Assembly: GCA_030068145.1 (NCBI GenBank)
Contig: JAPJBO010000284.1
Coordinates: 1 to 64,000, forward strand
DNA from: Diplonema papillatum
Lineage: Eukaryota > Euglenozoa > Diplonemea > Diplonemida > Diplonemidae
Length of the DNA stretch: 64,000 nucleotides
Direction of reading: 5' to 3'
Shown: positions 1 to 35,710 of the stretch, in pieces
Numbering within the stretch: the first letter of the stretch is position 1
Layout of the letters: each line of letters begins with the position of its first letter
Program-made: the position numbers and the translations under genes
Notes under the pieces: generated by a model
The model's database searches: none
What the model was told of the DNA's origin: nothing
Seen by the model: the letters and a program-made list of their open reading frames with translations, nothing else

Positions 1-702
1 ATTCGGCCCCAGGGACAGCTGGCCTACACCAAGGCCCTCTCGGCCTCGTTTGGGGCGATGGGGTTCGAGAATCACCCCCTGAGAGTTTTGGCCAAGGCCC
101 TGCGCGGTGGCGGTGCAGCTATCCCGGACAGCCAAGCGACGCCGCTCGAGAAGGAGAAGCTCGTGTCCTACGCCAGGCTGCAGCAGCCGTCCGTCCATCT
201 TGCCCTCCTCGTCGCGTGGAAGACGGCATCCCGTTGGGCGGAGGTGGCGGATCTTTCGTTCGCCCAGTTCCTCTTGGTGACGCAGAAGGAGGTGATCGTG
301 GACTGGTTCCAGACGCCGAAGGGGCGGACGCACGATCCGTTCAAGGCGTCGCGGTTCGCGGTGATCCAGGGGCCGTTGACGACGGAGATCGCCATGTTGT
401 TCAAGAAATGCGCGCCCTTCGCACCCCTGACAAGGCTATCGACGTCGGCGTTGGACTCTCTGTGGGGTCAGTCGGTGCAAATGCAGGGGTACACCGCGCA
501 CTCGATCAAGCGCGGCGCAGTGAAGCACCTCTTGCCGTTGCTGACCAGCGGCAAGCTGTCGCCGCACCTCATCGATCGGCTGACGAAGCACGAGGAGGAG
601 GGCGGTCCCGGGACGCTTTCGAGGACCACACTCCGGTACGCCGGGGGCGACGTGGACCTTGCCAGGGCACTCGAGACCGGCAAGGTGACGAGGCACTTGT
701 GA
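1..702 (+). CDS. Tyrosine recombinase (phage-integrase fold) of the retroelement, 5' partial
   Basis: The frame is open from the window edge, so the true start is upstream; the first in-window ATG is at 58. Counting from that ATG, the catalytic set is visible: Arg59 in TASRWAEVADL (box I), His148 and Arg152 in HSIKRGA (HxxR box II), His178 in LTKHEE, and the nucleophile candidate Tyr194 in LRYAGG. These would cut and rejoin DNA through a 3'-phosphotyrosine to integrate the circular cDNA. The stop at 700-702 lies within the open frame of the RT ORF, which is in the -1 frame relative to this one, so translation may be coupled or frameshifted. All key residues are present. Confidence 0.85.
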   Translation: MRPQGQLAYTKALSASFGAMGFENHPLRVLAKALRGGGAAIPDSQATPLEKEKLVSYARLQQPSVHLALLVAWKTASRWAEVADLSFAQFLLVTQKEVIVDWFQTPKGRTHDPFKASRFAVIQGPLTTEIAMLFKKCAPFAPLTRLSTSALDSLWGQSVQMQGYTAHSIKRGAVKHLLPLLTSGKLSPHLIDRLTKHEEEGGPGTLSRTTLRYAGGDVDLARALETGKVTRHL

Positions 703-6884: not shown

Positions 6885-7109
6885 GAGGCAGCGAAGAGAA
6901 ATAGCCTCGACACGTACTTAGTACGTTAGAAGCAATGGATGATATCTAAACCTGTCAATGAACACAATTGGTGGACAAGTCTGGTGCCAGCACCCGCGGT
7001 AATTCCAGCACCAATAGCGTATATTAATGCTGCTGCTGTTAAAAAGCTCGTAGTTGGATCCAGAGCTCAGGTTGCAAGGTGGCCCACTTTGCTGGGCATC
7101 AGCGTACTG
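6885..7109 (+). rRNA. SSU (18S) rRNA fragment, 530-loop region, non-functional
   Basis: The stretch reads through GAGGCAGCGAAGAGAAATAG, ACAATTGGTGGACAAGTCTG, GTGCCAGCACCCGCGGTAAT and GTTAAAAAGCTCGTAGTTGG, the universal SSU block around the 530 loop. CAGCACCCGCGG instead of CAGCAGCCGCGG, and the GAGGCAGCGAA word, are as I recall from kinetoplastid-type SSU. Only about 200 nt are present, with no flanking rRNA, so this is a fragment and not a working gene. Confidence 0.85.
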
Positions 7110-8409: not shown

Positions 8410-9175
8410 AAACATCAACGTAATGGCCCAAACTTGGGCCACTACATCAATGTAACGGGCAGAATTTGACGGAAAACCACTGTTACATCAATGTAATGGC
8501 CCAAATTTGACCGAAAACCACTGTTACATCGATGTAATGGCCAGAATCTGACGGAAAACCGCTGTTACATCGATGTAATGGGCAGAATCTGACGGAAAAC
8601 CACTGTTACATCAATGTAATGGCCCAAATTTGACGGAAAACCACTGATGTAATGGGCAGAATTTGACGGAAAACCACGGTTACATCAATGTAATGGCCCA
8701 AGTTTGACCGAAAACCACTGTTACATCAATGTATTGGCCCAAATTTGACCGAAAACCACTGTTACATCGATGGAATGGCCAGAATCTGACGGAAAACCGC
8801 TGTTACATCGATGTAATGGGCAGAATTTGACGGAAAACCACTGTTACATCAATGTAATGGCCCAAATTTGACGGAAAACCACTGTTACATCGATGTAATG
8901 GGCAGAATTTGACGGAAAACCACGGTTACATCAATGTAATGGCCCAAATTTGACGGAAAACCACTGTTACATCGATGCAATGGGCAGAATTTGACGGAAA
9001 ACCACGGTTACATCAATGTAATGGCCCAAATTTGACGGAAAACCACTGTTACATCAATGTAATGGCCCAAATTTGACCGAAAACCACTGTTACATCGATG
9101 TAATGGCCAGAATCTGACGGAAAACCGCTGTTACATCGATGCAACGGGCAGAATCTGACGGAAAACCACTGTTAC
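8410..9175 (+). repeat. 41-bp satellite, left part (about 18 copies)
   Basis: The monomer contains TTACATCAATGTAATGGCCC followed by an AAATTTGACGGAAAACCACTG half, total 41 bp. Each copy carries a palindromic core, TTACATCGATGTAA or its TTACATCAATGTAA variant. Two main classes, GGCCCAAATTTG and GGGCAGAATTTG, are interspersed. Continuous with 10861-13240 before element A inserted. Confidence 0.95.
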
Positions 9176-10853
9176 CATAGCTGTCAGCCACAAGGTTGCC
9201 ACATTGTGGCCCCATTTAGCCACAAAGTAGCCACAAACCTTGTGGCTACCTTTGTGGCTAATTATGCAAAATTTTGGTATCACGGAAAACCGCGTGGAAC
9301 TAACTTTTTCGGCCAGAAAATGCATCTGAAACACGTTTTCTGACGATTTTGACAGGGTTTTGGGCCAGAATACGGGTTAGTTGCTACACCCTGGGCTCGG
9401 CATCCTGGTTGCGCACCCTGGGGTACCATTGGTAAACGGTTTACTAAACCGCTACTGCTACTAAAGTAGTAGTAGGCATTATGCACACAGAATCATGCAT
9501 AATTCAGGTTGGCGAGAGTGACAGACCCATTCTACTTGCAAAGCGCTTACCATTTCTGTCCTGAAACCCTCTGAGAGGGCCTCTCAACCAGCGACCGGCG
9601 CTCTCCGAGCCTCTTGAATGACCCCAGAGGAGGAGTGGGAGAGAGCGGCAAGTACCGCCGCAGCCAAACAGATTTGAATGCTGCCAGAAAGCTGCAAAGA
9701 AAACGTGGCAGCCGTCTGATAATAGTCAGGAGCTGGCGGATGGTGACTGAGCTTGAGCTCCCTGCCGCGGGCCTGCGGCCCGTGCTGCCCTGCTGGACTG
9801 GTATTGTCGCAAGTCAGTCACTTTCAACTTTCCCTTGTGCCTTGGCTGGGCCTGTGCTACAGGAGCCTGCGAGGAATTTCCAAGACGTGTGAGAGATTGC
9901 CCCCGCTACTTTTCTCGGATCTTTGGCTCCTCCTTGAACTCTTTCGGACGCTGATTGCAACAAGTGTAACAGTGCCACTCAGTGACAGCTGTTACAGGGA
10001 GTCAGTCACACTGTCAGTGTGCTCCTGCTGTACTATCATAGTAACTATGCCTGCTGTCGTGTGAAGTTGCGAGCTCTGTGCACTTTGCAAGCAAGCAAGC
10101 AAACTCGCTGGTGACGGGGTAGCTTGCACACCGAGTAGAAGAGCTGTCGTAATTGTGAAATGCTCCGTTTGCTGGGTCGTTGCTGTCCTGTTTAACCTTG
10201 GGTATCTTAGAATATCAGTGCATCGCCGTTACTAGTACGGCTGTCACCGGCGTGGTTTGGGTCCTTTAGCAGGAAAAGTTGGAGACTATGCACCCCGCAA
10301 CTGAAACGGGTTTGCGGACAAGCGACCCTTTGAACTAAATTGATTCCTTGCCTGCTCCAAAACTTGGCAACAGAAGCATTGGCAGCTTCGTACTGACTCT
10401 GCGGTCTGAAATATCAACATCGCTTTCGACGGGTTCGTCTTCCTCCGGTGCACTCTCTGACTCAAAATGTACCAGAACTATGGCATTAGCATTGGTGCTG
10501 CGACCGTGTTGGCAAGATGCAGCAGCTTGTTGTTGTTTTCTGAACTTTTCAAGCCTTGAATTACTTGCAGTGTTGTACGAAGTTACTGATAGAGTTGCCA
10601 ACGTTGCCGCTGACTCGCGGCTGAGGATACGAGGCCAGGGCGAAGCAGCTTACCCAAATTCGGGCCCAAAAACCTGTCAAAATCATCAGAAATTGTGTTT
10701 TAGATGCATTTTCTGGCCGAAAAAACTAGTTTCACGTGGTTTTCCTGGGTATCCAAATTTTGCATAATTAGCCACAAAGGTAGCCACAAGGTTTGTGGCT
10801 ACTTTGTGGCTCCCAATTAGCCACTAGTGGCTACCTTGTGGCTGACAGCTATG
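9176..10853 (+). mobile_element. 1.68-kb TIR element, copy A, with 7-bp target duplication
   Basis: The element starts CATAGCTGTCAGCCACAA and ends with its inverse, TTGTGGCTGACAGCTATG. The terminal inverted repeats are long (over 200 bp) and imperfect, with internal GCCACAA/TTGTGGC palindromes. CTGTTAC lies on both sides (9169-9175 and 10854-10860), and removing the element plus one CTGTTAC restores the 41-bp satellite register exactly. No transposase is visible; a short acidic ORF at 10335-10601 (minus) has a counterpart in copy B. It is probably non-autonomous. The superfamily is unassigned. Confidence 0.85.
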
Positions 10854-10860
10854 CTGTTAC

Positions 10861-13240
10861 ATCAATGTAATGGCCCAAATTTGACCGAAAACCACTGTTA
10901 CATCAATGTAATGGCCAGAATTTGACGGAAAACCACTGTTACATCAATGTAATGGCCCAAATTTGACGGAAAACCACTGTTACATCGATGTAATGGGCAG
11001 AATTTGACGGAAAACCACGGTTACATCAATGAAATGGCCCAAATTTGACCGAAAACCACTGTTACATCAATGTAATGGCCAGAATTTGACCGAAAACCAC
11101 TGTTACATCAATGTAATGGCCCAAATTTGACCGAAAACCACTGTTACATCGATGTAATGGCCAGAATCTGACGGAAAACCACTGTTACATCGATGTAATG
11201 GGCAGAATCTGACGGAAAACCACTGTTACATCAATGTAATGGCCCAAATTTGACGGAAAACCACTGTTACATCGATGTAATGGGCAGAATTTGACGGAAA
11301 ACCACTGTTACATCAATGTAATGGCCCAAATTTGACCGAAAACCACTGTTACATCAATGTAATGGCCAGAATTTGACGGAAAACCACTGTTACATCAATG
11401 TAATGGCCCAAATTTGACGGAAAACCACTGTTACATCGATGTAATGGGCAGAATTTGACGGAAAACCACGGTTACATCAATGAAATGGCCCAAGTTTGAC
11501 CGAAAACCACTGTTACATCAATGTAATGGCCAGAATTTGACCGAAAACCACTGTTACATCAATGTAATGGCCCAAATTTGACCGAAAACCACTGTTACAT
11601 CGATGTAATGGCCAGAATCTGACGGAAAACCGCTGTTACATCGATGTAATGGGCAGAATCTGACGGAAAACCACTGTTACATCAATGTAATGGCCCAAAT
11701 TTGACGGAAAACCACTGTTACATCGATGTAATGGGCAGAATCTGACGGAAAACCACTGTTACATCAATGTAATGGCCCAAATTTGACGGAAAACCACTGT
11801 TACATCAATGTAATGGCCCAAATTTGACCGAAAACCACTGTTACATCAATGTAATGGCCAAATTTGACGGAAAACCACTGTTACATCAATGTAATGGCCC
11901 AAATTTGACGGAAAACCACTGTTACATCGATGTAATGGGCAGAATTTGACGGAAAACCACGGTTACATCAATGAAATGGCCCAAGTTTGACCGAAAACCA
12001 CTGTTACATCAATGTAATGGCCAGAATTTGACCGAAAACCACTGTTACATCAATGTAATGGCCCAATTTGACCGAAAACCACTGTTACATCGATGTAATG
12101 GGCAGAATTTGACGGAAAACCACTGTTACATCAATGTAATGGCCCAAATTTGACCGAAAATCACTGTTACATCGATGGAATGGCCAGAATCTGACGGAAA
12201 ACCACTGTTACATCAATGTAATGGGCCAAATTTGACCGAAAACCACTGTTACATCAATGTAATGGCCAAATTTGACCGAAAACCACTGTTACATCAATGT
12301 AATGGCCCAAGTTTGACCGAAAACCACTGTTACATCAATGTAATGGCCAGAATTTGACCGAAAACCACTGTTACATCGATGTAATGGCCAAATCTGACGG
12401 AAAACCGCTGTTACATCGATGTAATGGGCAGAATTTGACCGAAAACCACTGTTGCATCAATGTAATGGCCAAATCTGACGGAAAACCACTGTTACATCAA
12501 TGTAATGGCCAAAATTTGACGGAAAACCACTGTTACATCGATGTAATGGGCAGAATCTGACGGAAAACCACTGTTACATCAATGTAATGGCCCAAATTTG
12601 ACGGAAAACCACTGTTACATCGATGTAATGGGCAGAATCTGACGGAAAACCACTGTTACATCAATGTAATGGGCCAAATTTGACCGAAAACCACTGTTAC
12701 ATCAATGTAATGGGCCAAATTTGACCGAAAACCACTGTTACATCAATGTAATGGCCCAAATTTGATGGAAAACCACTGTTACATCAATGTAATGGGCCAA
12801 GTTTGACCGAAAACCACTGTTACATCAATGTAATGGGCAGAATTTGACGGAAAACCACTGTTACATCAATGTAATGGCCCAAATTTGACCGAAAACCACT
12901 GTTACATCGATGTAATGGCCCAAATCTGACGGAAAACCACTGTTACATTGATGTAATGGGCAGAATTTGACGGAAAACCACTGTTACATCAATGTAATGG
13001 CCCAAATTTGACGGAAAACCACTGTTACATCAATGTAATGGCCCAAATTTGACGCAAAGCCACTGTTACATCAATGTAATGGGCAAATTTGACGGAAAAC
13101 CACTGTTACATTGATGTAATGGGCCAAATTTGACGGAAAACCACTGTTACATCAATGTAATGGCCCAAATTTGACGGAAACCCACTGTTACATCAATGTA
13201 ATGGGCCAAATTTGACCGAAAACCACTGTTGCAACTTGCA
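10861..13240 (+). repeat. 41-bp satellite, main block (about 58 copies) with higher-order structure
   Basis: Same monomer and orientation as 8410-9175. A rare variant, ATCAATGAAATGGCCC, recurs at 11,021, 11,472 and 11,963. The first spacing is 451 bp, exactly 11 monomers, and the second is 491 bp, close to 12. This indicates higher-order units. Confidence 0.95.
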
Positions 13241-13309
13241 TCAATGTAGTGGGCCAAATCGGCTAAAATGACCAAAATCCGGATTTTTCGAAAAGTGGCA
13301 CGAAAACCG

Positions 13310-13394
13310 AAAAAAGTCTACTTGCGGGGTTCGAACCCGGGTCGTCAGAGCTTGGTACCCAAGGTACTACTGCATCAACCACAGGAGCTCTGGC
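13310..13394 (-). ncRNA. tRNA-like Pol III unit or tRNA pseudogene at the satellite inversion centre
   Basis: Read on the minus strand, the unit begins GCCAGAGCTCCTGTGG, has a loose A-box-like GTGGTTGATGCAGTAG, a perfect B box GGTTCGAACC (13328-13337), and ends in a T6 tract (13310-13315) like a Pol III terminator. CAGAGCT can pair with AGCTCTG, and GTACC with GGTAC. A normal cloverleaf does not form because the acceptor strands do not match, so it is a decayed or tRNA-derived sequence. On the minus strand a T18 run precedes it (A18 on the plus strand). Confidence 0.45.
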
Positions 13395-13465
13395 AAAAAA
13401 AAAAAAAAAAACCTTTCATTCTTGGCCGACTGTTCAAAAAACTGTCTTTTTCAGTTTTTGCGCCT

Positions 13466-14408
13466 TTGATGTAACAGTGGTTTTCTGTGAAATTCGGCCC
13501 GTTACATTGGTGTAATAGTGGTTTTCCGTCAAATTCTGCCCATTACATTGATGTAACAGTGGTTTTCGGTCAGATTCTGGCCCATTACATTGATGTAACA
13601 GCGGTTTTCGGTCAAATTTGGCCCATTACATTGATGTAACAGTGGTTTTCCGTCAAATTCTGCCCATTACATTGATGTAACAGTGGTTTTCCGTCAAATT
13701 CTGCCCATTCCATCGATGTACCAGTGGTTTTCGGTCAAATTTGGGCCATTACATTGATGTAACAGTGGTTTTCTGTCAAATTTGGGCCATTACATCGATG
13801 TAACAGTGGTTTTCCGTCAAATTCTGCCCATTACATTGATGTAACAGTGGTTTTCCGTCAAATGCTGCCCATTACATCGATGTAACAGTGGTTTTCGGTC
13901 AGATTTGGGCCATTACATTGATGTAACAGTGGGTTTCTGTGAAATTCGGCCCATTACAGTGATGTAACAGTGGTTTCCCGCCAGATTTGGCCCATTACAT
14001 TGATGTAACAGCGGTTTTCGGTCAGATTTGGGCCATTACATTGATGCAACAGTGGTTTTCGGTCAAATTCGGCCCATTACATTGATGTAACAGTGGTTTT
14101 CCGTCAGATTCTGCCCATTACATCGATGTAACAGTGGTTTTCGGTCAAATTTGGGCCATGACATTGATGTAACAGTGGTTTTCGGTCAAATTCTGCCCAT
14201 TACATTGATGTAACAGTGGTTTTCCGTCAGATTCTGCCCATTACATCGATGTAACAGTGGTTTTCCGTCAAATTCTGCCCATTCCATCGATGTACCAGTG
14301 GTTTTCGGTCAAATTTGGGCCATTACATTGATGTAACAGTGGTTTTCCGTCAAATTCTGCCATTCCATCGATGTACCAGTGGTTTTCGGTCAAATTTGGC
14401 CCATTACA
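13466..14408 (-). repeat. 41-bp satellite in inverted orientation (about 23 copies)
   Basis: The same monomer reads as its reverse complement (CAGTGGTTTTCCGTCAAATT). Orientation switches across the 13,241-13,465 spacer. The same two monomer classes occur. Confidence 0.93.
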
Positions 14409-17459: not shown

Positions 17460-17640
17460 TCCTACACAACGTTCTGCTACGCAATGTCTCAGACACACAA
17501 CGTTCTGCTACGCAACGTTCTGCTAAACACCAACGTAACTGCAAAGCAATATGCTCAACGTCTTACACAACGTTCTGCCGTGCACATTTGCTACGCAACG
17601 TTCTGCTAGACACCAACATAACTGCAAAGCAGTATGGTTT
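17460..17640. repeat. Short degenerate repeat built on ACAACGTTCTGCTACGCAA
   Basis: The words CAACGTTCTGCTA and ACACCAACNTAACTGCAAAG recur about five and two times, with irregular spacing. Confidence 0.6.
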
Positions 17641-17680
17641 TCTTTCCATCCTCGGGAATTTAGTTTTCCCAATAAAATCA

Positions 17681-17873
17681 TTTATTCGGCAATAATTTCC
17701 GCCAATTTTGCCTCGGTGTCGGTTTTAGTCCCTCGGGAGGCCCTCGGGGGGGTTTGCAACCCCTCGCCACTCGCTCCGCTCGTGGCTCGGGGTTGCAAAC
17801 CCCCCCTCGGGCCTCCCTCGGGACTAAAACCGACACCTCGGCAAAATAAACGGAAATTATCTTGCCGAATAAA
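17681..17873. repeat. Foldback (MITE-like) element, 193 bp
   Basis: The outer arms TTTATTCGGCAATAATTTCC and its complement, ending GCCGAATAAA, enclose GTGTCGGTTTTAGTCCCTCG and its complement. The whole folds into one hairpin with a short GC-rich loop at about 17,772-17,790. Arms are nearly perfect with a few small indels. Confidence 0.85.
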
Positions 17874-18236
17874 TGCTTATTATTCCAATTTCAATATCCT
17901 GTCATCAGCACCTTTTTAGCCCGGAACCAGGTGCGTTAGTGGGCACGTTGAACGTTTGCAGTCAGCAGGCTCATTTTCATTCAGACAACGTCCTCATTCT
18001 AGCTGCTCTTACATAAACCATCTGGCCTGTACCGACTCTATGAAAGCTCATGCCGTCATATGTTTGTCCCATCTCTCTTGCGTTCTTGTCTGTTCTCTAT
18101 CAGTGGCTGTCGTGCATTCGCTGTCTTGTCTCGAATGTTGTGTGCGTTCAAGCGTGTGATCTGGTTGTGCTTCGCTTCGTGCTGCATTGATAATCTTTCA
18201 TCTCGTGAAATTTATTGCAGGGGTTTGAATTCTAAG

Positions 18237-19127
18237 ATGCCGCGCGAGAATAAGATCAGCTGCACCACGAAAAGGAAATTGGGGGAAGCGCACAAAAAAG
18301 CTCCTTACAAAGGACCGAACAGCGGCCGCAGAGGCCGTTTTGTACGTTGAGCAGGGGGGCGACGACTCGCGTCAAAAAGGCACGAGACGCAGTCGCGCGA
18401 TGGGAGGGCCTCAAATTCTCCCTAGTCCCCACCGCCGTTCGGTACATGCTGCCGAGATCCGCCGCGCGCCTCGACGACGATGACACCGGCATCCGCGAGG
18501 TCGTTGGGCCGGCGGACTTGTTCGCAGCAGCCAGAGCGGAGGCACGACACTTGTTGTCGTGCTGGACGCAACCGAGAAGCGGGCGGCAGGCAAGCAAGCG
18601 AACACAGCGGCCCAGCTGGCCGCTAAGTTTACCGGCGCCGACCTGCAACCGGGCTTCAAGGTCGGTAAAGGCAGGTAACTTGCGTGGGATGTTCAATGGT
18701 GGTATCCGTCGCCAAGGATGGGGACAAAGACAAGCTCAGGCTTGCCCCTTACGAGGCACATATTAGTGGCTGCGAAAAAGGCGCCGCCCTGCTGGAGAAG
18801 ACCGCGGTGGCTGCGGTCGAGAAGAAGCGAGGGTCTCATTTGCAAGACTCTCGAGTTGGGGCTCAAGCGCGACGAGAGGAAGAAAGGCGGGCCGCCGCCG
18901 CGAAAGAGGATCTGTCCAGCTACAGATCTCTTTTGGACATCTGGAAGAAGCCGAAGCAGACGGCGAAGCCTGCGGGCACGAGCACAGACGAAGACACGGC
19001 CTCGGAGATACCGGATGCTGACCCGCCGGCGGAGCTACTAAATGCTGATTCACCAGGGACTGTCCTGGTGAAGAGGAAGGCAGAGGAGTGCCAAGAGCCG
19101 AGGAAGAAGCTCGTCTTTCTGCTGTAG
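18237..19127 (+). pseudogene. Frame-disrupted coding remnant, unknown family
   Basis: A pyrimidine-rich stretch ending ATTGCAG lies just before ATG 18237, like a splice acceptor. The reading then hops frame: 18237-18350 (basic, TTKRKLGEAHKKAPYKG), 18350-18540 (ARDAVARWEGLKFSLVPT, LDDDDTGIREVV), about 18550-18676 (VVVLDATEKRAAGKQANTAA), and 18684-19127 (a charged, Ala/Glu-rich region ending at a stop). Each shift is by one base in the same sense. It could be a decayed gene or an old retroelement Gag-like ORF. I do not recognise a domain. Confidence 0.4.
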
Positions 19128-20579: not shown

Positions 20580-20924
20580 CGCCCCCGCACGACCCTTGAC
20601 ATCACGCTTCGGACTTTGAATGCATCCTTGTTTTGTATTTTGTCTGGAGTGGACGAGCAGGAGATTAGGTTTCGGAGTGACTGTGCCAAGCCACACTGTG
20701 CCAAGCCAAATCGGGGACACTTCTTCTGCAACCAGCAATTTGCGGATTTGTAACTGACACTACCTCATATTCAAGGTGAGAAGAGAAGAACTGCAATAGC
20801 GGGGTTTTGCCTGGAGGCTTTTCGTGTTATTCTGCAGATGCTTTGAGCTATCTTTGTGTCCGGCACAAGCTTTTGCGCCCGATTACCCGTGCGACAAAGG
20901 AGCTCAGAACTGTGACCGCAGTTG

Positions 20925-21048
20925 CCATCTTAGATGTAGTAGCCGTTTCTCAGGCTCCCTCTCCGGAATCGAACCCTAATTCCCCGTTACCCGTTACAGC
21001 CACGGTAGTCCACTACACTACCGTCAAAAGCTGACAGGGCAGAAGCTC
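20925..21048 (-). rRNA. SSU (18S) rRNA fragment, non-functional
   Basis: The minus strand reads CTGCCCTGTCAGCTTTTGAC, GTAACGGGTAACGGGGAATT, GGGTTCGATTCCGGAGAGGG and AGCCTGAGAAACGGCTAC, the conserved 5'-domain SSU block. Similarity fades beyond ACATCTAAGATGGCA. In intact SSU this block lies shortly upstream of the one at 6885-7109; here they are 14 kb apart on opposite strands. Confidence 0.85.
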
Positions 21049-21364
21049 TTGCGGGCTTGAACCGACTTGAAGTCGTGTGCTATCACTCGATTGACCTGGT
21101 TTATCCACACACCGCTGCTATTTGTTACAAGAACTACATTGCTGTTGACGAGATTTCGCTTGAAGGCATTCTTCGTTCGGTATTTGACGAGCCCCTCTAG
21201 ACTCGATAGCGAGAGAGGAAAGGACGGTTGCAAAGACACAAAGACGGCCGACGCCCCCTCCTTTTCGCCGCGAGTACACATTTGTCTGCAGACTGGCGAT
21301 TGTCTCACGAACTCTCACGACAACCGGCACTTTTTAACAAGAACGCCTTTGCTAGGAAAGTGCC

Positions 21365-23749: not shown

Positions 23750-24225
23750 CGAATGAATGGAGGCCTTGGGAAATTGCCTCAACGGCACACGTATTCGGTT
23801 CGCCTGCGTCGAATACGTGCAGCGCAAGGTGCGGCAGGAATGGCTGTGTGCCCCGGGATCTTTGCACACGGGACGCAACAAGTGCCAGCTGCTGGAGCCG
23901 CATTCGCCATCTAAAGAGCCAGGGGGTGTTTTTAGGTCGCTCAGAAACGAATAACGTCCACACAAGCGACCACGTCGGGGCTCAAAGAGATGGCGTGACT
24001 CACTGGTTGCCGAACTCGGGCAACATCTGCACGCAGCTGAAGTCTGCAACATACCGAGGCAAACGAGCGATCCCCTCTACGATGAATGGGCATATCTCGA
24101 GGAACGTGAGACGCTGCTGTGACTATGAATTTATGCTCGTTACAGTCAGACGCGTCAAGGAGGGCGTTGTATCCGGATTCCCCCGGGACAGGATCCTCGA
24201 CGGAAGTCAGCTCGTGGAGGGCCAT
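23750..24225 (-). pseudogene. Two decayed copies of the FSH1-hydrolase exon of the adjacent megasynthase
   Basis: About 24,165-23,960 (minus) encodes GYNALLDASDC and HAISLSPDVVACV, matching GYSAILDASDF and HTISWSPDVIAQV of the functional exon. About 23,890-23,750 encodes VCKDPG and, in another frame, LHVFDAGEPN, matching LCKDPG and LHMFDVSEPY. Both are frameshifted and lack the GFSQG nucleophile region. They follow the real last exon in the same orientation, so they look like tandem duplicates that decayed. Confidence 0.65.
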
Positions 24226-24255: not shown

Positions 24256-27200
24256 TTACGTCTGCTGTGAAACGAAGGAGGCGACCTGAGCAATCACATC
24301 GGGGCTCCAAGAGATGGTGTGGCCATTCTCGTGGAGAACAACGACTGGAGCGGTGAAGAGATCTGCGGCTGATTGACTGTACGGCTCGCTCACATCGAAC
24401 ATGTGGAGCGTTGGCACCCGGCTGAAGTCGGACGCGTCGAGAATGGCACTGTACCCGGGGTCTTTGCACAGGACACTCGACAAGAGGATCCCCCACGACG
24501 CCAGCTGCTGGCTGATCGCGAGGAGAGCCATGGCTGCCCCTTGCGAGAAGCCGATGACGCCATCAAACGGCCCGTGCTGCTCCGCCAGGGCCCGGACGTA
24601 CTCGACACTTTCTTCACGGCCTACGCACACGTCGCCGTCCCAGGCGTCCTCGTAGTGCAGGACTGCATCTCTCCGCTTCAACGGACAGTGCCACCACTCA
24701 AACAGCTCTTCATCCGCTGGAATGTCGGGGTGCCCCGTCCCTGTTGCCTTGTGCGGCGCGTTCACCTGTGTGCGAGTAGTCGAAATAAGCCGAAGAGCGA
24801 TCTGACAGTGAGAAAACACACGGAAGGTAAGGGAGCAAATCTTAGTTTCGTGGTCAGGCGAAATTTGCCTCTAATGTATGCTTGATGCTAGCATCAAGCC
24901 TTTCAGTGCAGAGTTTTGTTTTGGGTTCTTTCTTTTTCACCTTTCTCCTTTATTTCGTTGTCGGCATCACAAGGAATGCACATCTTGCCTGGTGAGAACA
25001 AGTACTCATCAGCACTGTCAGCGGACAAGTCTAATGACGATGCCGACAAATACAGAAAGTCACTCGGTAGCACTAAGCATACATTCTCAACTAAAAAGAG
25101 GGGTCGGTCCTGCTGGACGTTCCACGTTAGATTCTCCTACTCCCGCAATCGCGAGTAGCACAAACTCAAGAGGTCTAGACTAACAACCATTCAATAGCAA
25201 AATACTTCCATAGTATAAGAAGTATTAGTTTAAACTTGATATGCAGCAACAATCTGTGACGATAGACTGCACAAACCGCAACAGACTACCTCTTTGCACG
25301 CGTCGTATCATGCTTCGATCGCTTCTTGCCCCTAGTAGTAGTATGTGTTTGAACGTGTTATGCAGCAAAAATCTGTGACAATAGACTGCACAAGCCGCTA
25401 CAGACTACCTCTTTGCACGCGTCGTGTCATGCTTCGGTTCTACTGTTTGTCTCCGGTGCGCGCTTCACGTCCGATGTGCGGTTTGGTAGTGGTAGTACGT
25501 GTCGTTCCCGTCCGGCGGTAAAAAACACTTCCAAAAACAAAGGGAGGAGGGCAGCCCATACCAGCACCAACTGGACGCCGTCCCTTGCGAACCGGCCGAG
25601 CAGCGGCTTCAGCTGCGCGAGCAGCAGCGCGCGCGAGTCGCGCCAGCCGTGCAGGCAGAGCACCCGCTTTTTGACGTCCGCCGGCGCCGTGCCGTCGGGC
25701 ACCCGCAGCACCTCGCCGGGCCCCGCGCCCTCGTCGCGCAGCGGCGCGCCTGAGGCCAGCGCCTGGGCGAGCTCGAGGAGGGACGCGTCGTCCTGCAGGC
25801 TCACGAACGTCACCGACAAGTCGGATCGGAGGGCATGTGCTAGCTGCAGCTGCGCGAGCGAGTCGAAGCCGAGCTGCGACAGCGTCAGCTTCGCGTCGAC
25901 GTCGTTCGGCGGCACTTTCAGCCGGTCTGCGACGTGCCGCTTGAGGAGCGCGAGCACGCCGCTGGCCGTCAGCCCCGCGCTTTCGGGCGCCGCCTCGCCT
26001 TCCGCGGCCGCCCGCACCGGGCGCCCGACGCAGAGGATCCGGTGCTCCCCGCCGCCGCCCTGCGGCGGCACGTATTCCCGCACCACCGCGCCTGCGAGCA
26101 GCTGGACAGCGGACCGGTCAGCGTCGTTCCAGACGAGCAGGGACACCCACGGCCGGGCCCACGTTGCTGCCAGGTACGCGTCCAGCACCGCGCGATCCCG
26201 CAGCGCCTCGCCCGTCAACACGACGACCAGCCCCGCGCCGCCGCCGGCCCACCGCGCCAGCAGCGCGGCGGTTTCGGGCGTCGCGATGTGCACGACACGC
26301 AGCAGCCCGGGGGCCTCGCTCCGCAGCACGGCGGCCGCTGTCTCCGTCCGCTCCGCGGCGGCGCCGCCGGAGACGGCGCCTGCGGCGAAGTCGGCGCACC
26401 ACCGGCCGCCGCCTTCTTCTCCGCCTCTTCCACCGTCGCAGCTGTACACGCACCCGACGCACGGCGGCGCGGCCGCGGCGGGCTCGGCGCCGCGCGCGGG
26501 GAGCGGTGCGCTCCGGCAGTCGATGAGGACCTTGCCGATGTGCTTCCCCGTGTTGAGCAGGGTCATCGCCTCGCCGGCCTGGTCGCAGGGGTACAGCTTG
26601 ATGGGCAGCGGGTCGAGCCTCCCGGCCCCGGCTTCCGCCCACAACTCGGCGAGAAAGCCCGGGGCGTGGGCCCTGTCGGAGAGAAGGACGTCCAGGTGCG
26701 CGCTCATGTACTGCTGCGCGAGTGAAAAGCGCTGCAGGTCGATCGAAGCGTGGGAAAGCTGGTCGCGCTTGCCGAGCTCCACGAACCGGCCGAAAGGCTT
26801 CAGCAGGCGGAGGGAAGCCTGCATCGACTCGTCAGCGAGGGAGTTAATGACGGCGTCGACGCCCTGCCCGCCGGTGGCTGCGAGCACGCCGGCGGTGAAG
26901 TCGGTGGCGCTGCGAGAGTTGAAGACGAAGGCCGGGTCGACGCCGCAGCTCTCCGTCAAAAACAGCCGCTTCGCCTCCGTCGACACGGTGCACAGCGGAA
27001 CGGCGCCGACCCGGCGGCACAACCGGACGCACGCCTGCCCGACGCCGCCGGCCGCCGCGTGGATCAGAACAGTTTCCCCCTGTTGGATCCGGGCGAGCTT
27101 CCGCACGGCGAGCCAGGCGGTCCCGTAAGCGAGCGAAACGGTGCTCGCCTCGTCGAGGCCCATCCCGTCGGGGATGCGCACGCACCGGTGGGACTCGCAG

Positions 27201-30200
27201 ACGCAGCGGTTGCCGAGGCCGCTTTTGCCGGGCAGCGCGGCGACGCGGTCGCCCGCCTTCACGCTCCGCACGCTGCCGCCGACCCGCAGCACGACGCCGG
27301 CGCACTCGCCTCCGACCTTGCCCAGCGTCTCCGACGACGCCATCACGCCGCTCGCCAGCAGGACGTCGAGGAAGTTCAGTGCCCACACCTCGGCCCGGAT
27401 CAGCACGTCGTCCTCACCCACCGACAAATCCTCCGCGTCCTCCTCCACCGCAACCACACGCGAGTCGAACCCAGCGCCAAACCGGCTAATGTCGATACGG
27501 AACGCGTCGGAGCCTCGCGCGTCCGGGGCTTCCTCCTCGGGAGGCGCCTTCCACGCCTCGTTGAGCGCGAATTCCGGGACTAACAGGGCGTCGGCTGCGA
27601 CCCTGCAGACGGAGGCGTGTTCGGCGAAGAACACGTGGCCTTCGGCCGGCTGCTTCGGGCACGTGACCGCCTTGCTGAGGTTGACCCATGTGAGCGGCTC
27701 CGCCGCGTCTGCGACGGCGACGCGGACGGTCTGCGGGAAGCAGGCGAGGGCCGCCGGCGGCTCGCCGCCGATGGCCCAGACGACGGTTTGAGCAGTGACG
27801 CGGCACGTCGGGGGGCGGACGGCGGCCCCGGCGAGGATGATGATGTCCTCGACGAGCTCGCCCGGCGGGATGGTGCCCGCGGCGGTGTGCACGACCGGCG
27901 ATGAACCCCCCGGCCTCGGGCGCTGCAGCGCGGAGATGAGGAGCTGCTCGGACTGCTTCTCGTCGGGGGCGGCGAGCACGAGCACGTGGTGCGTTCCCCG
28001 GCGCGCGGCGCGCCCGGCGTCGGCCGCCGCCGGCCGCCACTGCACGTCCTCGACGGGGCCGCGGAACGCAGCTGCTTTCGAGGGCACCCGCGTCGTCTCG
28101 AACGAGTTGAACGCGGCAAGAACCGCACCGTTCTCGGCCGAGACGCTGAGATCGACACCCACCCCACCCCTGCCAGCAACTGCGCAGACCGACAGCCTGC
28201 GGACGGGCCCGTTTGCCGCGGGTGTTGCGATGGTGTGCTGTTCGTCGAAGACGGTGTACCGCTCGATGCGGGAAGGGTATCCGTCGCAACCCAGCAGCGC
28301 CGCGACTTGCGTGCAGCCGTCGATTGCCGCCGCGCCGGCGTTGACGGCGCGGGATGGCGGCAGGCCCGGGAACACGACGACTTCGCCGGACACGACGCCG
28401 TCGCGTCCCTTCTGCACCTGTTCGACGCAGCGGAAGGCGCCCGCGTACTGGAAACCTTCCCCCGCCATGCTTTCGTACAGCGACCCGGCGGCGGCCCGGC
28501 GGGCGGTCTCGGCGCCTTTTTTTACGGCCAGCTGGCGCACGAAGGCGACGCCCTGCGCTTTGACGGCGGCGTCGCAGTGCACCTTCCAGTCGGTCGCCTT
28601 CGCGACGCTGAAGTTCTCGTCGACGGTCACGATCCGGCTCGACACGCGGACGGACCAAGTGTCGCCGGCGGTGTCGACCGTCGTTTGGACTTCTCTCTTC
28701 TGCCCGGCCTGCATCGGCTGCCGACGCGTCGCGAACGGGATCTCGACCGCACTCTTGAACCTGACACTCTCGAGAGTCACCTGCGCCGTGTTGCTGATAC
28801 TTCGGATGGCCGAAGTCATGAGGTCGAGCCAGAACGTGGCAGGGATGACGATGTTGTTCGACACGACGTGGCCCTGCAGCCACGAGAGCCCGAGTGCTGC
28901 CCACTGCGAAGACAGTGACCCGTTGCTGTCCATCGCGCAGGGCCAGATGGTCAGCCACGAGTGGCAGTTAGACAAGTCTTGGGAGGTGATGAGCTGCGTG
29001 CCGAGCAAGGAAACGGTTTCGTCCATGACCAAGTGCTCCGTCAGGCTCGTCGGCAGGTCGAGCGCGACGGAGTAGTCGGACCACGACTGGATCCGGTTGA
29101 CCATCACCGCCGATCCGCATTGAGGCTTCCGACGCTCTGGAACCGCTTTCACCACGGTATCCAGCTCATCTTTTTCCTCCGGCTTGGGCCCACGGCCTTC
29201 ATCAGCAGAGAGGAGGCGGCACCCGCCCCCACTACCGCGGCGCCCTTTCTGCCCGAACCCCGTCTGCAGCAGCTGTTCGACGGCGGCGAGTCCCTCCGGC
29301 GGAGCGAGGAAGGTTTCGCCCTTGAGCGGCGTGATCTTGAACCGCTCGGACATGCCGACCGTCCAGCCGCCCCACTGCACGGAGATGACTTTGATGTCGC
29401 TCGTTTTGCGGTACTGGTCGCAGAGGCTGTCCAAGTAGGCGTTTGCTGCAGTGTACACAGCCTGGCCGGCGGGTCCCAGCACGGCGCTGCTGGAGCTCAT
29501 GAGGAAGACGGCCGGCGTTTCGTACAGGAGCTTGTCCCTCTTCCGGACCTCGGACAGCAGGTGGTGCACGCCGTGCACCTTAGCGCCCATCAGCCGCGTC
29601 AGCGAGGCGACGTCAGGCGCGAGGCGAGCGATGGTGCTGTCGGACACGACGCCCGCGCAGTGGAAGATGGTCTCGAGCGGGATCTGCAGGTCGTCGACCG
29701 TGTCGAAGATGAAGCGCATCGCCTCCGCGACGGCGTCGCCCCGGCTGACGTCGCAGGGCACGTGCACCACGCGCGGCTCCTCGGCCCGCCCGCAGCACTG
29801 CGGGCACGAGCGGCCGGGCTCGGCTTCGGACGGCGACGCGCCATCGGCCTCGTCGTTCTTCGGCTTGCTGCCGCGCAGGGCGCCGACCTCTTTTTTCGGC
29901 TTGCTGCCCTTCGCGGCGTCGCCGTCGACCTTCACCCGCGGCGCCCCCTTGCTGCGCCCGGACACCTGCTTCGGCGCGTGCGCGTCGTCCGGACCGACGC
30001 TCTGGAAGCTGTTGTTCTGCACCCCTTGGTCGCCTGCCGGCGCGTCACCAGACCCGCTACGCGGCGCGGCGGGCTTCGAGGCCGACACGCAGTCGCACGG
30101 CGGGCGGGGTGCCCCGGGGTGGGGCCGGGGGGGTTCGGGGGGGGGGGGTGTGCGCGAGAGGACAAAGACGCGCTTCGCGCCGCGGTCGAGGCTCCACGAG

Positions 30201-33200
30201 ACCAGCTCCTTTCCGATGCCCTGCGTCCCGCCGGTCACGACGACCGCCTTCTCGGCGAAGCAGCCCTTCCTGCAGTGCGGCGCGCCGGCCGCCGCCTTCG
30301 GCAGGCTGCCCGTCCGGTCCACATCGCCCGTTTTGACGAGCCGAGCCACCGCAAAATCCGGCCCAACCCCGCACCTCCCCGGTGTGACTGCGATCTCTTC
30401 TTCCCGGGCCAGGGCATGCGCCTCGACGCGGGTGAGAACGCCGGCGTGCAAGAAGTCGGGGGTGAGTGCGCCGCCACGGAGAACGACTCGGTGCAGCTTG
30501 AGCTGCGGGAGCTCTCGCGCGACTGCCCGGAAGAACCCGGTGACCGCCGCGTGGGAGGGGCCCTCCGGCACGACGACGACGAGGTGCGGCCGGGCAGGCA
30601 GGCTGCGCGTGTCGACCGCGCCGAGGACCTGCACCACCGCCACGACGCGGAGCAGCCGCTCCATCGCGTCCTCCGGGCTCTCGTCGAAGTCCGCCCCGAA
30701 GGCGGCGAGCGCCAGCCGCCCGTGCACCCTGAGGCACCACTCCACCTGCGACGCCGCGCACTCGATCAACGGGAGCGCCCCGGGTGCCAGCTCGCCGTCG
30801 ATGACCCAGACGGGCCAGACGGTGCGGGAGGCTGGTTCAGGCTGGCAAGGCGGCGTCGACGTGGGCTGGTACACGTACTCGAAGAGCTCGACCGTCGCGT
30901 CCTGCTTTTTGAGGGGGAGCGCGGCGTTCAGGTGGACGTGCGCCTGCGTGGTTTGCAGGAGGGACCCTGGATTGCCGGAGTTGGGCTTCACCGGCGAAGG
31001 GGCGTCCGGCCAGCAAGGCTCGCGGGACCACGAGGGGGGCGGGAGAGACGGCGGGGGAGCGGGCGCGGGGGGGAGGCCGGAGTTGACGTCGATGTTGACG
31101 CCGTGCTGCCAGATGGTGGCGAGGGACGCCCAGAAGGTCTTTTCCTCGGACTGCCACGCGGCGGCCGACGGCCGCGACATCAGCGACACGATCGGCGCGC
31201 CGCGGGCGGCGGACGCGACGCACGACTTCAGGAGCTGCGGCCCGCACTCGACGACGACCATCGCCTCGCCCAGCTCGTCCTTGAGGAGCTCGACGGCCTT
31301 CGAAAACAGCACGGGCTCCCGCATGTGCGCGGCCCAGTACGCGGGCGACGCCATGTCCCGCTCGGACAGCCAGTTTCCGGTCACCGACGACACCACAGGC
31401 CATACTTTCTCGCCGTTCTTCCCGCCAGTGCCGGTTTCCAACCGCGCGCCTTCGAGCACGGCGCGAACCTCGGGCAGCGCCGGGTCGACGAACGACGTGT
31501 GGAACGCGCCGGCGGTGTTCATCAACCGCAGGCCCCAGCCTTTCCCAACGTCGGACTCCGCCAGCTGCAGCACGCTCTCGTGCGACCCGGCGACGACGCA
31601 TCGGTCCGGGGCGTTGACGCAGGCAAGCTGCAAGTCCGACGGGAACGGGCTGGCGGGGTCGGAGAGGACGTCTCGCACCTCGGCTTCGGACGCCGCGACG
31701 GAGGCCATGCGGCCGAGGTTCTCGGTCGGCAGGTTGTCGATGGAGCGGCCGCGGGCGGAGACGAAGCGGAGCGCCTTGTCGAGGGCGAGCCCCCCACTGA
31801 CGACCGCCGCGACGATCTCGCCGAGCGAGTGGCCGACCGACGCGGCCGGGCGGAGGTGGAACTGGTCGGTGAGCACGCACGCGAGGCAGTACTCCAAGCA
31901 GAACAGCGCCACCTGCGAGCCTTCGTTCGACGCCGGGTTCAGCGGCACCACGCCGCCCAGCGCGGCTTCGCACCGCGCGTGCGCCGCAGCGTACGCAGGG
32001 AGCGACGGGGCGGAGCGCAGGCCGTTGGACAGGTTTTCGGAGGCGCCGCCCTGCCCGGGGAACAGGAAAACCACCTTCGGCGGCGTGCGCCGCGCCTCGA
32101 CGACGGTCGCCGCCGGCTCGACCGCCGCCGCCGAAAACGTCAGGAACGACCGGAACGCGTACGCCGGCCGCGCGACCGCCAGCGCCGCCGCCGCGGCCCG
32201 CAGGAACCCGCCGCCGGCCGCGTCGCGCCCGGCGCAGCGCTTCCGCAGCCGCTCGACGTCCTCCTCGGCCGCGCTGCGGCTCCGGTTCGACACCAGCAGC
32301 ACCCCGCAGGCCGCCGCCGGCTCGGCGGCGTCCTGGGGCGCGGTGGTGGGCGCGGGCGGGGGGGGTGTGTACTCTTCGCAGACCACGTGCACGTTCGTGC
32401 CGCCGACGCCGAAGCTGGACACGCCGCAGACCCGCTTGCGCCGGCCGTGGGACAGCGCCCATGGCTCGGGCTTGACCTGCACGCGGAGGGGGTGTTCGAC
32501 GGCGAGCATCGGGCTGGCGTGATTTGCGGTGGGCACCAGCGTCTTGTGGTGCAAGCACAGCACCGCCTTCAGCAGCCCCGCCGCGCCGGCGGCGGTGTTG
32601 GCGTGGCCGATGTGGCCCTTCACGGAGCCGAGGGAGATCGTCGGGGAAACACCGTAGACTTCGGACAGGCCGTTGAGCTCGATCGGGTCGCCGATCGCGG
32701 TGCCCGTCCCGTGACCTTCGATCATGCTGACGCTTTCCGCTGCGACCGACGCGTCGTGCAGCGCGGCCGTCATCGCCGCGACCTGCCCGGAGCGGGACGG
32801 CGAGTTGTAGGTGTGCTTCCGACGCCCGTCGTTCGCGACGCCGCACCCTTTGATGACGGCATACACCCGGTCGCCGTCGGCCTCCGCCCGGTCCAGCGGT
32901 TTGAGCACGAACGATACGGCGGCGCACCCCGGAACGGTGCCTGTGCCTTCCTGGCAGTACGGCCGGCAGCGCCCGTCGACGCTCCACACCATCCCCGGCT
33001 GGTGGAGGTACCCGGTGTCCTGCGGGAGCTGGATCGACGCCGCCGCGGCGATCGCGACTTCGCAGGTGCCCGCGCGCAGGTTCTGCACCGCGGTGGCGAC
33101 AGCAAGCAGCCCGGAGCTGCAAGCGCTCTGCACCGTCTGCGACGGGCCCTGCAGGTTCAGCAGGTACGACACCCGCGTCGAGCAGTAGTCCTTGTCGTTC

Positions 33201-35710
33201 CCGACTTCGACCGCCCAGTACCTCGCCGGGTCGTCGATCCGGCACGCCGCAGTGTCGAGCTTGACGACGTCCTGCAGATACTGCGGCAGCGACGGCCCCG
33301 CCGTGAACACACCTACATTACGGGTGGGCACCGCCCGCCTGCCCAGCCGCTGCCTGCGGCTCGCGGCGTCCTCCTTCGCCCACTTCGCGGGGTCGGTGTC
33401 GATGCTGTACGCGTACCCGCTGTCGAGGAGCGACTCGTAGCACAGCTCGAGGAGCACGCGCTGGTTGGGGTCCGTCAGGGACGCCTCCTCCTTGGTGAGG
33501 TTGAACGTGCGGAAGTCGAAGTTTTTGATGAACGCGTCGTCCATCAGCACGCCGCGCTTGACGTACGCCGGATTCGCCAGCAGCGACGACCGGACGCCGT
33601 TCGCCTCCAGCACCGCATCCGCCAACGGAACCGAGCAGTCGACCGGCTTCAGCAGCGAAGCCCACACGGCGTCGATGTTGTCGCCCTCGGGTACCGGCCA
33701 CCGGACGGCGATCCCGACGATTGCCACCGGAAACCTGGAGTCAGACGGCGGGAGGCGCGCCGTTTCGGTTTTTTTCGGGTCGCCCCGGCGCCCGGCTTTG
33801 AGGAGGAGCTCTGCCTGCTGGCTCATGGTCTCGTTCTCGACGAGGTCCGCGACCCGCAGCCGCAGCAGCTGCGAGAGCCGCGTGAGCGTCAGCGAGTGCC
33901 CGCCGACGTCGAACAGCGACGTGTCGCCGTCGACGGCAGCGACGCCGGGTCCCAGCAGCTGGATCCACGCCGCCTTGACCCGCTCGTACGCGCCGGCCGA
34001 CCCGAGAGCCTCTTGGGGGGGACGGTGGGTCGACGGCGCGGGCGGGGTGGAGTCCGAGAGGTACTCTGCAGGGACCGCCTGCGCCTCGGCCCATTGCTGC
34101 AGGACGGCGGCGTTGACCTTCCCGGTGGGGGTCTGCGGGAAGGCTTTGAGGAAGTAGTACGTCGACGGCTGGTGGGACCAGGGGAGGTGCATGGCGTCGA
34201 GCTCCTGGCGGATCTTGCTGGCGAAGCCGACCGGGACGCCAGCGGGCTCCGACGCCGGCTTCCGGATGAAAGCGACGAGCGAGTCGTTCCACGCGAGGGC
34301 GTGCGCATCCAGGACCGGGGAGTTCAGGCACGCGGGGGACAGCTCCTTCAACCGCTGCTGCACCTCCGCGGTGTCTATCCGGAACCCACGGACCTTCGCC
34401 GTCTTGTTCAGCCGGCCGCGGAGGCAGTAGACCTCGAGCGAGCTGCCGGGCGCCACGTCGCGGTACGCCGCGGCCTTCAGCGACCGACACGCCGCCTCGT
34501 CCATCGAAATCCGCACTTTTTCGGCGCGGTCCTTCGTGTACCAAGTGCGCACCCCGTCGCGATCTGCGAACGAGCCCATGCTCCCCGCGTCCGCCCCGAT
34601 GTACGCGGCGCCCTGCGGTACCCCTGAGCCCGACACGCACAGCTCCAGCAACTCCTCGCCCGGCTCCGTTCCGTCGGCGGCGTACGGGATGAGCTGCAGG
34701 GCGACACCCGTGACAGGAAGCCCAGCGGGGGCGTGGAGGTGGCCGGCGGCGGAGAGCAGCGCGGCGACGGGGGGGGTCACTTCGAAGGCGGCGACGTCGC
34801 CGGCTTCGGTGGTGGAGAGGAGGTTGATGACGGTGGTGGCGGGCAGGGTTTCGTGCACGAGGGCGACGGTGTCGAGCGGGAGAGGCTCGCCGGACGTGAC
34901 GACGATTTTGAGGGTGCCGCGGACGGTGTGGATGAGGTCGTCCTGCACGATGGCGCGCAGCAGGGACGGCGTGATGCAGTCGATCCTCGCAACGGGGTAC
35001 ATCGCGAGGTACGCGACGAACAGCGTGCTGTCGATGACGACCGAGTCGGGGATCACCGCCGTCGGACACCCCATGCTCATCGCCATCCACCAGTACCAGC
35101 ACGGGAACATGTTCACCCCCGTCACCTCGCCGTCAGCCATCGGGTAGTTCTCATTGCGCCACCGCAGCATGTTGCACAAATGCCCGTGGGTCATCACGAC
35201 GCCCTTCGGCTTCCCTGTCGACCCTGTCGTCCAGTCCACGAAGGCAGGCATCTCCTCCGTCACCTCCGGAAACACATACTCCGCGGTTTCGCCGGACCCC
35301 GCTTCATCCTCTATTTGCAAGGCGCGCGTGCCTGCCCGTTGGCGGTGGGAGACGAACTGTTGCAGAGTAGCCGCCGCGTCGTATAGGATGCACGACGGCC
35401 GCCACGTGTCGAGGACGTGCTCTCGCTGCGGGTCCGTCAGGCGGGGATCGACGATGGTGAACGGCGCGCCGGCGAGTGAGCACGCGAGACACGCCGTGAC
35501 CCAGTCGGGGCCCTTCTCGGAGACGACTGCGACGCGGGTCCCGGGCGGGGCGTCGAGCCGCGAGGCGAGGCGGGCGGAGCGGGCGAGAAGCTCGGCGAAG
35601 GTCAGCGAGCGGTCCTCGAAGTGCAGGGCGACCGCGCCAGGGCGGGCGGCGGCTTGCCGCCGGATCATCCGCGGGTACGGCGCGACGCCGCCGGCGCCCC
35701 GGCCCGACAT
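24256..35710 (-). CDS. Hybrid NRPS/type I PKS-like megasynthase with C-terminal FSH1 hydrolase (3552 aa, two exons)
   Basis: Model: exons 35710-25562 and 24765-24256; the 796-bp intron has donor GTATGG and acceptor CACAG, phase 0, and rejoins VQLVL to VNAPHK within the hydrolase. Domains by residue: adenylation 15-530 (TTGSTGKPKGVVMTHG, GRLNKTAKVRGFRID, PTGKV); ACP about 575-645 (DVGGHSL); KS 658-1110 (Cys864 in SACSSG, EGHGTGT, KGHIGHANTAAG); AT 1213-1530 (FPGQGG, GHSLGE, GAFH); KR 1600-2170 (GGTQGIG; Ser and Tyr in SSSSAV...YTAAN) with a Pro/Lys-rich insert of about 130 residues; DH 2250-2520 (HVVSNNIVIP, IDGCTQ); ER 2743-3063 (AAAGGVGQA); ACP about 3280 (GFDSL); FSH1-type serine hydrolase 3350-3552 (CLHGW, GFSQG Ser3457, HENGH). 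KR before DH-ER is not the usual order. Predicted role: activate a starter acid, extend with fully reducing chemistry, release by hydrolysis. The GTG at 35821 lies 37 codons upstream in frame; ATG 35710 is preferred. Confidence 0.88.
25226..25440. repeat. Tandem duplication inside the megasynthase intron
   Basis: AATCTGTGACGATAGACTGC and CTACCTCTTTGCACGCGTCG recur about 120 bp apart (25,250-25,320 and 25,370-25,437) with a few mismatches. The right copy ends near the upstream exon. Confidence 0.8.

Follow-up and report, generated by a model that had tools for sequence, protein, structure and literature searches.

The window analysed here consists of the first 64,000 nucleotides of contig JAPJBO010000284.1 (forward strand, assembly GCA_030068145.1) from the euglenozoan Diplonema papillatum. 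It contains a megasynthase gene that combines features of the nonribosomal peptide synthetases (NRPS) and the polyketide synthases (PKS). The gene lies on the minus strand at 35710..24256, and its two exons give one predicted protein of 3552 amino acids (aa). The start ATG at 35710 and the stop TAA at 24256 coincide exactly with the interval 24256-35710 given by an earlier model-made reading of this DNA (hereafter the sequence-only reading). Exon 1 (25562..35710, minus strand) has 10149 nt, a multiple of 3, and lies in a minus-strand frame that is open from 35854 to 25427. It is followed by a predicted GT-AG intron (24766..25561, minus strand; 796 nt, 46% guanine and cytosine, GC), which reads GTATGG...CACACAG, and by exon 2 (24256..24765, minus strand), which ends with TAA. 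The intron interrupts the fold of an FSH1 serine hydrolase, where '...GVQLVLV' joins 'NAPHKATG...'. Alternative in-frame splice choices exist; the chosen one appears to give the most natural reading of the FSH1 domain. The third-position GC is 0.76-1.00 in 46 of 46 segments of exon 1 (75 codons each; 8 codons in the last). Since this value is high along the exon, compared with 46% GC in the intron, a chance origin of the open reading frame (ORF) is excluded. The 3552 codons contain no stop or frameshift, and the gene is apparently intact.

Pfam analysis of the ORFs and motif reading gave the domain order A-T-KS-AT-KR-DH-ER-T-FSH1: adenylation (A), carrier (T), ketosynthase (KS), acyltransferase (AT), ketoreductase (KR), dehydratase (DH), enoylreductase (ER), a second carrier, and the hydrolase. 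The order that the sequence-only reading had proposed at this interval, A-ACP-KS-AT-KR-DH-ER-ACP-FSH1 (ACP, acyl carrier protein), is thus confirmed, as is its claim that the catalytic residues of the KS and AT and both carrier serines are present. The Pfam matches run AMP-binding, ketoacyl-synt N and C, Acyl_transf_1, KR, PKS_DH_N, PS-DH, ADH_N, and ADH_zinc_N, with PP-binding in two stretches. Pfam was run on a longer ORF, and 37 has to be subtracted from its numbering for the 3552-aa protein. Exon 1 encodes all domains up to the second carrier and the first part of FSH1. No condensation (C) domain was found in the megasynthase by Pfam.

All domains lie on the minus strand. The A domain (34031..35668, aa 15-560) was identified by PF00501 and by solved NRPS A domains. 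The first carrier, T1 (33776..34003), was recognised by its GGHSL motif with S606. The KS (32366..33730; C864, H1000, and H1036) and the AT (31166..32077; GHSLG with S1295) were recognised by both Pfam and motifs. The AT also contains a GAFH motif, which we take to suggest malonyl-CoA. The probable structural half of the KR (30266..30913, aa 1600-1815) scored 9.5 bits with our own structural KR profile, and 0/500 shuffles were as good. The catalytic half (29306..30253; GGTQGIG at 1827, Y2086, N2090) matched PF08659 and scored 97 bits with our own profile. A low-complexity coding insertion of about 120 aa (29786..30145, aa ~1856-1975) lies inside the KR. A hidden intron at this position was ruled out, since GC and third-position GC are the same as in the remaining exon. 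The DH (28073..28918; H2281, D2464) matched PF21089 and PF14765, and the ER (26522..27418; glycine motif at 2884) matched PF08240, PF00107, and PF13602. The second carrier, T2 (25736..25963), contains GFDSL with S3284 and matched PF00550. The FSH1 domain (PF03959, E 4.5e-16, on the exon 2 ORF 24256-24870) has S3457 and H3532 as its catalytic residues, both encoded by exon 2. It also weakly matches yeast 1ycd (E 0.0041). It is very probable, from domains and motifs, that this architecture is correct and that the protein acts as a single module.

The closest relatives of the KS and KR were searched among bacterial loci collected for comparison (L-numbers). The comparison centres on BurA, in which a starter is extended by one malonyl unit to the β-hydroxy acid gonyol (PMC7496086). 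Five loci (L003, L004, L010, L013, and L016) form the BurA-like set. A tree of 38 KSs places the window KS in one group with all five BurA-like KSs at an ultrafast bootstrap (UFBoot) support of 99, and with L010 and L013 in particular at 97. FastTree also placed it with the BurA-like group (support 0.985). In the KR FastTree (28 rows, some overlapping), the window KR groups with L010 and L013 (support 0.958). Among the 40 plasmid matches listed, the top KS identities, 40-42%, come from rhizobia. By Pfam, L003 and L016 are TE-A-T-KS-AT-KR with two PP-binding stretches each (TE, thioesterase); L010 shares this order and has a single PP-binding stretch and two TE stretches. L004 is A-KS-AT-KR by tblastn, and in L013 the A, KS, AT, TE, and KR are spread over several annotated pieces. 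For dinoflagellates, BurA-like transcripts are listed with the order TE-A-PP-KS-AT-TE-KR-PP (PMC7159223), where PP stands for the phosphopantetheine-binding carrier. The BurA-like synthases share the order A-KS-AT-KR, the KS affinity, and the hallmarks of the A pocket with the window synthase, and L010 and L013 also the KR affinity; however, L003, L010, and L016 have an N-terminal TE, which the window synthase does not. The latter thus departs from the BurA-type plan, TE-A-T-KS-AT-KR-T without DH and ER. Taken together, the sequences suggest that the window synthase is likely to descend from a BurA-like synthase.

The neighbourhoods of these loci were also inspected. In L010, the flanking genes are annotated as a SET-domain methyltransferase, a TauD dioxygenase, an aminotransferase, and an aldehyde dehydrogenase. 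Four kinds of bur gene are named for dimethylsulfoniopropionate (DMSP): SET-domain methyltransferase, decarboxylase, transaminase, and dehydrogenase (PMC7496086). Three of the four have counterparts among the L010 neighbours. Two dehydrogenase genes (815-1786 and 17552-18520) flank the BurA-like synthase of L003; in NCBIfam, both match carnitine dehydrogenases best, though below the cut-off. Since glycine betaine plus a two-carbon unit plus a KR would give carnitine, the L003 synthase may provide a polyketide route to a carnitine-like compound. The Rhizobium lusitanum synthase of L013 (9067-13705) is annotated in overlapping pieces and is perhaps a broken or misread gene. L014 is KS-AT-KR-T-TE, and its KS lies next to the BurA-like group (FastTree 0.937; UFBoot 61). 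A gene for a ProX-like glycine betaine binding protein (14316-15374 of L014; below cut-off) adjoins this synthase.

A domains of this family adenylate a small acid and load it onto a carrier. The A domain of BurA, which prefers DMSP as its substrate, is described as lacking Asp235; the loop there is shorter and contains hydrophobic residues, and the pocket has an acidic residue, D606 (PMC7496086). The window A domain has a shortened A4 loop, NMFPCWYWWMAMSMG (35069..35113, minus strand, aa 200-214), likewise without Asp235, and the alignment shows a five-residue gap at this loop common to the window and BurA-like A domains. The window and the four measured BurA-like A domains have an A3-A4 distance of 45, whereas in the others it is 47-57 with a median of 50 (202 of 225 measurable). 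D305 (34796..34798, minus strand) aligns with the pocket position that we take to be 330 in GrsA numbering. An acidic residue occurs in this column in 15 of 231 A domains, nine of which keep Asp at the loop start. The combination of an acidic residue at 330 with no Asp at the loop start is found in six of the 231, namely the window and the five BurA-like A domains; L003, L004, and L010 had been picked before the pocket test, and L013 and L016 were added from later searches. The acidic residue is 568 in L003 and 593 in L010, near BurA D606, although its identity with D606 is unproven. The A3-A5 core of the window scored 71.7 with a BurA-like profile, compared with a maximum of 59.2 for random four-sequence profiles (0/60 as good). 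A FastTree of the 231 sequences joined the window to the five BurA-like A domains (support 0.951). A scan of genome contigs with a long query matched nine stretches, none of which was confirmed. A second scan, with A1, matched at least 596 stretches, of which 185 were confirmed and the best 80 kept; since its patterns were generic, these are largely A domains of the NRPS type.

Since Asp235 is absent, the starter is probably not an α-amino acid. The pocket case for a non-α-amino, probably cationic starter is real but not conclusive. On these pocket features, the chance that the starter is a zwitterion such as DMSP or betaine falls just short of even. It is put forward as a working hypothesis, since the comparisons of the whole A domain are mixed or negative.

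From the architecture and these affinities, we infer a chemistry with a single turnover. The A domain would adenylate a small starter acid with ATP and load it onto T1, and the AT would put malonyl on T2. The KS would condense the T1-bound starter once with the malonyl group, and the KR, DH, and ER would then reduce the β-keto group fully to a saturated thioester. Hydrolysis by the FSH1 serine hydrolase would release the acid. DMSP as the starter would yield 5-dimethylsulfoniopentanoate, and glycine betaine would yield γ-butyrobetaine. Because the pocket resembles that of the DMSP-using BurA, the most likely product appears to be a fully reduced onium acid, longer by two carbons. The DH and ER would be the difference from BurA, since BurA stops at the β-hydroxy acid. 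They would have been inserted between the KR and the last carrier of a BurA-like ancestor, with release shifted to the C-terminal FSH1. The whole account, a non-iterative single-module NRPS-PKS hybrid of BurA-like descent with an onium-acid product, is given a probability of about 0.5.

The sequence-only reading had taken the animal type I fatty acid synthase (FAS) and the reducing PKS as its frame, whose canonical order is KS-AT-DH-ER-KR-ACP. The megasynthase departs from that order, but the animal FAS is the wrong frame, since a KR-first order results if a DH-ER pair joins behind KS-AT-KR. If DH and ER were added to a KS-AT-KR-T module just behind its KR and ahead of its T, no rearrangement is needed. 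This gain would be the simplest history, and it would simply explain the displaced KR.

Several observations weigh against this account. In the BurA-like synthases, no DH, ER, or FSH1 was found, whereas the window synthase has all three, and no decarboxylase is annotated in the L010 stretch. The segments of about 220 aa before and about 190 aa after the ER match nothing in Pfam or with our own profiles. For the A3-A5 core, three other A domains (L017_9575, L020_10412, and L015_9545) outscore the window, which ranks 4 of 226. For the whole A domain, the window scored 143.9 bits with the BurA-like profile and 215.4 bits with a generic profile of 100 sequences; 20 random profiles of five sequences each gave a median of 143.3 (maximum 170.9). 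With the BurA-like whole-domain profile, 119 of 125 test A domains outscore the window (rank 120 of 126). In an IQ-TREE analysis of 58 A domains, the window paired with L015_9545, and the approximately unbiased (AU) test did not choose between the placements (p 0.553 versus 0.447). Its pocket (CWYWW) is also much more aromatic than the BurA-like pockets. On the other side, the difference between the BurA-like and generic scores of the window is the least negative of the 126 A domains.

In one alternative, the architecture and descent are as proposed, but the starter is a different acid (amino, hydroxy, or aryl). The short loop would then be convergent, and the product would be a reduced chain from that acid. 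The whole-domain comparison gives BurA no preference, the tree leaves the A domain between the BurA-like group and L015_9545, and other A domains, such as L015_9545, L017_9575, and L020_4603, also have no Asp at the loop start. Against this, the window agrees with the BurA-like A domains in its loop length, its acidic residue, and its A3-A5 core, and the KS and KR likewise group with BurA-like enzymes. A different starter of this kind is less likely than not.

A second alternative concerns the origin of the DH-ER pair alone, and is compatible with the other readings. A complete canonical cassette, DH-[structural KR]-ER-[catalytic KR], might have been inserted after a BurA-like KR. The cassette KR would then have decayed, and the segments between DH and ER (27419..28072, minus strand) and between ER and T2 (25964..26521, minus strand) would be its relics. 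Both are about the size of KR halves. The DH-ER spacing of about 220 aa resembles that of canonical modules (L002 and L092), which place the structural KR half ahead of the ER, and it is unlike the 35-39 aa in two cyanobacterial KR-DH-ER modules. By eye, the segment after the ER starts glycine-rich. However, our own profiles detected no KR in either segment. The segment before the ER gave no score with the catalytic profile, and with the structural profile 299 of 500 shuffles were as good; the segment after the ER scored -1.0 with the catalytic profile (37 of 500 shuffles as good) and had no Pfam match. The profile search after the ER thus agrees with the sequence-only reading, which had placed the only KR ahead of the DH. 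An AlphaFold2 model of the ER region, from a two-sequence alignment, has a mean pLDDT of 34.4, too low for any conclusion about the fold. Insertion of a complete cassette can be entertained, at odds well below even.

The protein might also be an iterative, fatty-acid-like synthase, in which repeated return of the product to the KS builds a long saturated acid for release by FSH1. A full reducing set in a single module is present, as in the iterative FAS and reducing PKS. But an A-T pair serves as the loader, and in the trees both the KS and the KR fall with BurA-like enzymes, BurA itself being described as adding one malonyl unit (PMC7496086). Iteration is therefore unlikely. The single fully reducing module, the A-T loader without a C domain, and the built-in hydrolase claimed by the sequence-only reading are borne out by Pfam and motifs, whereas its suggestion of a possibly iterative synthase is not favoured.

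Directly downstream of the gene, at 23852-24044 (minus strand), the 3' part of the FSH1 exon recurs in partial, degenerate copies (three repeat families, 71-85% identity), which suggests that the exon was duplicated in tandem and then decayed. A 41-bp unit is repeated in large tandem arrays of 18, 58, and 23 copies at 8443-14408; by its unit sequence, the last array runs opposite to the first two. Fragments of small subunit (SSU) rRNA (Rfam RF01960) lie amid non-rRNA sequence at 20923-21112 (minus strand, 118.8 bits) and 6901-7014 (plus strand, 72.1 bits). The latter reads CAGCACCCGCGGTAATTCC and carries CAGCACCCGCGG, a variant that we take to be typical of Euglenozoa; together with the predicted intron, it would fit a diplonemid or euglenid. 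The spliced-leader motifs of Euglenozoa and of dinoflagellates gave 0 matches each in the window. Among the 78 ORFs listed in the window, 19 others were scanned with Pfam, and no pathway gene was found among them. A 713-aa ORF at 216-2357 (plus strand) is possibly a retroelement, judging by a weak match to RT_RNaseH (E 2e-4) that misses the Pfam cut-off. Two minus-strand ORFs are possible ubiquitin-pathway genes: one at 53698-55443, whose RING and IBR matches are weak and do not reach the cut-off, and one at 60206-61657 with a WWE match and a weak UBA-like one. A 33-bp tandem repeat (59530-60235, 21 copies) lies inside a 435-aa ORF with a weak Cu-oxidase_3 match. That the megasynthase is itself a decaying or silent copy is very improbable: the partial exon copies adjoin it, and the flanks contain tandem repeats, a retroelement-like ORF, and rRNA fragments, but its catalytic motifs are retained, and the high third-position GC and the uninterrupted 3552 codons argue against decay.

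The order with KR before DH and ER is not new, and the megasynthase belongs to an architecture already printed for other organisms; the departure that the sequence-only reading had presented as unusual is known from dinoflagellates (PMC7159223), haptophytes (PMC7073580), ClbB (PMC5490422), and a Chroococcidiopsis plasmid. KSs were seen in 31 of the 94 surveyed loci, and the KR-first order was checked by Pfam in three modules only. Two are KS-AT-KR-DH-ER modules of the Chroococcidiopsis plasmid (L008), one of which also has a methyltransferase; in these two modules, the Pfam matches for DH and ER are 35-39 aa apart, compared with about 220 in the window. The third is a KR-DH module of a Saprospiraceae locus (L086). 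A tblastn search of plasmids with the KR-DH segment gave 179 records, none covering 80%, and only KR-sized matches among the 25 listed. A text search of the open-licence literature for printed order strings matched the ClbB paper (PMC5490422) alone. PKSs have been reported from Euglena gracilis; polyketide work on diplonemids was not found in the open-licence literature, where the matches were unrelated by title. In a set of six related open-licence papers, no link of protist PKSs to such zwitterionic compounds was found, and the word gonyol occurred only in PMC7496086.

ClbB of the colibactin pathway is described as C-A-T followed by KS-AT-KR-DH-ER-T (PMC5490422). Its KR is ahead of the DH and ER as in the window synthase, but a condensation domain is present, and it is thought to use alanine within a multi-enzyme line, unlike the single-protein window synthase. 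In haptophytes such as Chrysochromulina tobinii, an A-PKS with an A domain, a fully reducing module, and a displaced KR resembles the window synthase by its description (PMC7073580). A second haptophyte A-PKS is reported with a sister KS and two thioesterases (PMC7073580), which would fit a BurA-like synthase.

Further printed counterparts come from dinoflagellates. Gambierdiscus transcripts are printed as A-PP-KS-KR-DH-ER-PP-TE, and a Karenia brevis contig has an identical structure (PMC7159223). The hybrids from Gambierdiscus, K. brevis, and Ostreopsis have the order, the A-T loader, and the C-terminal hydrolase in common with the window synthase. That work describes them in its text as a cis-AT clade but lists no AT in its table; the window synthase has an AT. 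The comparison with them covers the printed order and motifs, and their KS motifs are partly different from those of the window. ZmaK-like transcripts of dinoflagellates, which have A domains and two carrier domains, are also described, with a figure legend that names FSH1 serine hydrolases, and horizontal transfer is considered likely by the authors (PMC9027781, PMC9500876). Their carrier motifs, EIGGHSL and DAGLDSL, resemble the DVGGHSL and QLGFDSL of the window. We infer that these transcripts have the architecture of the window synthase, and that the FSH1 of the legend belongs to them.

The printed dinoflagellate and haptophyte architecture is thus extended into Euglenozoa. What is new here is the euglenozoan host, the BurA-like affinity of the KS and KR, and the proposal of a zwitterionic starter. 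If that starter is correct, it would connect an orphan class of protist PKSs with DMSP, betaines, and similar zwitterionic osmolytes. It is conceivable, though less likely than not, that dinoflagellates, haptophytes, and the diplonemid have in their A-loaded synthases with a leading KR one family of fully reducing onium-acid synthases, derived from a bacterial BurA-type gonyol synthase. Such a family would make compounds such as 5-dimethylsulfoniopentanoate or γ-butyrobetaine via a polyketide route, extending DMSP or betaine by two saturated carbons.

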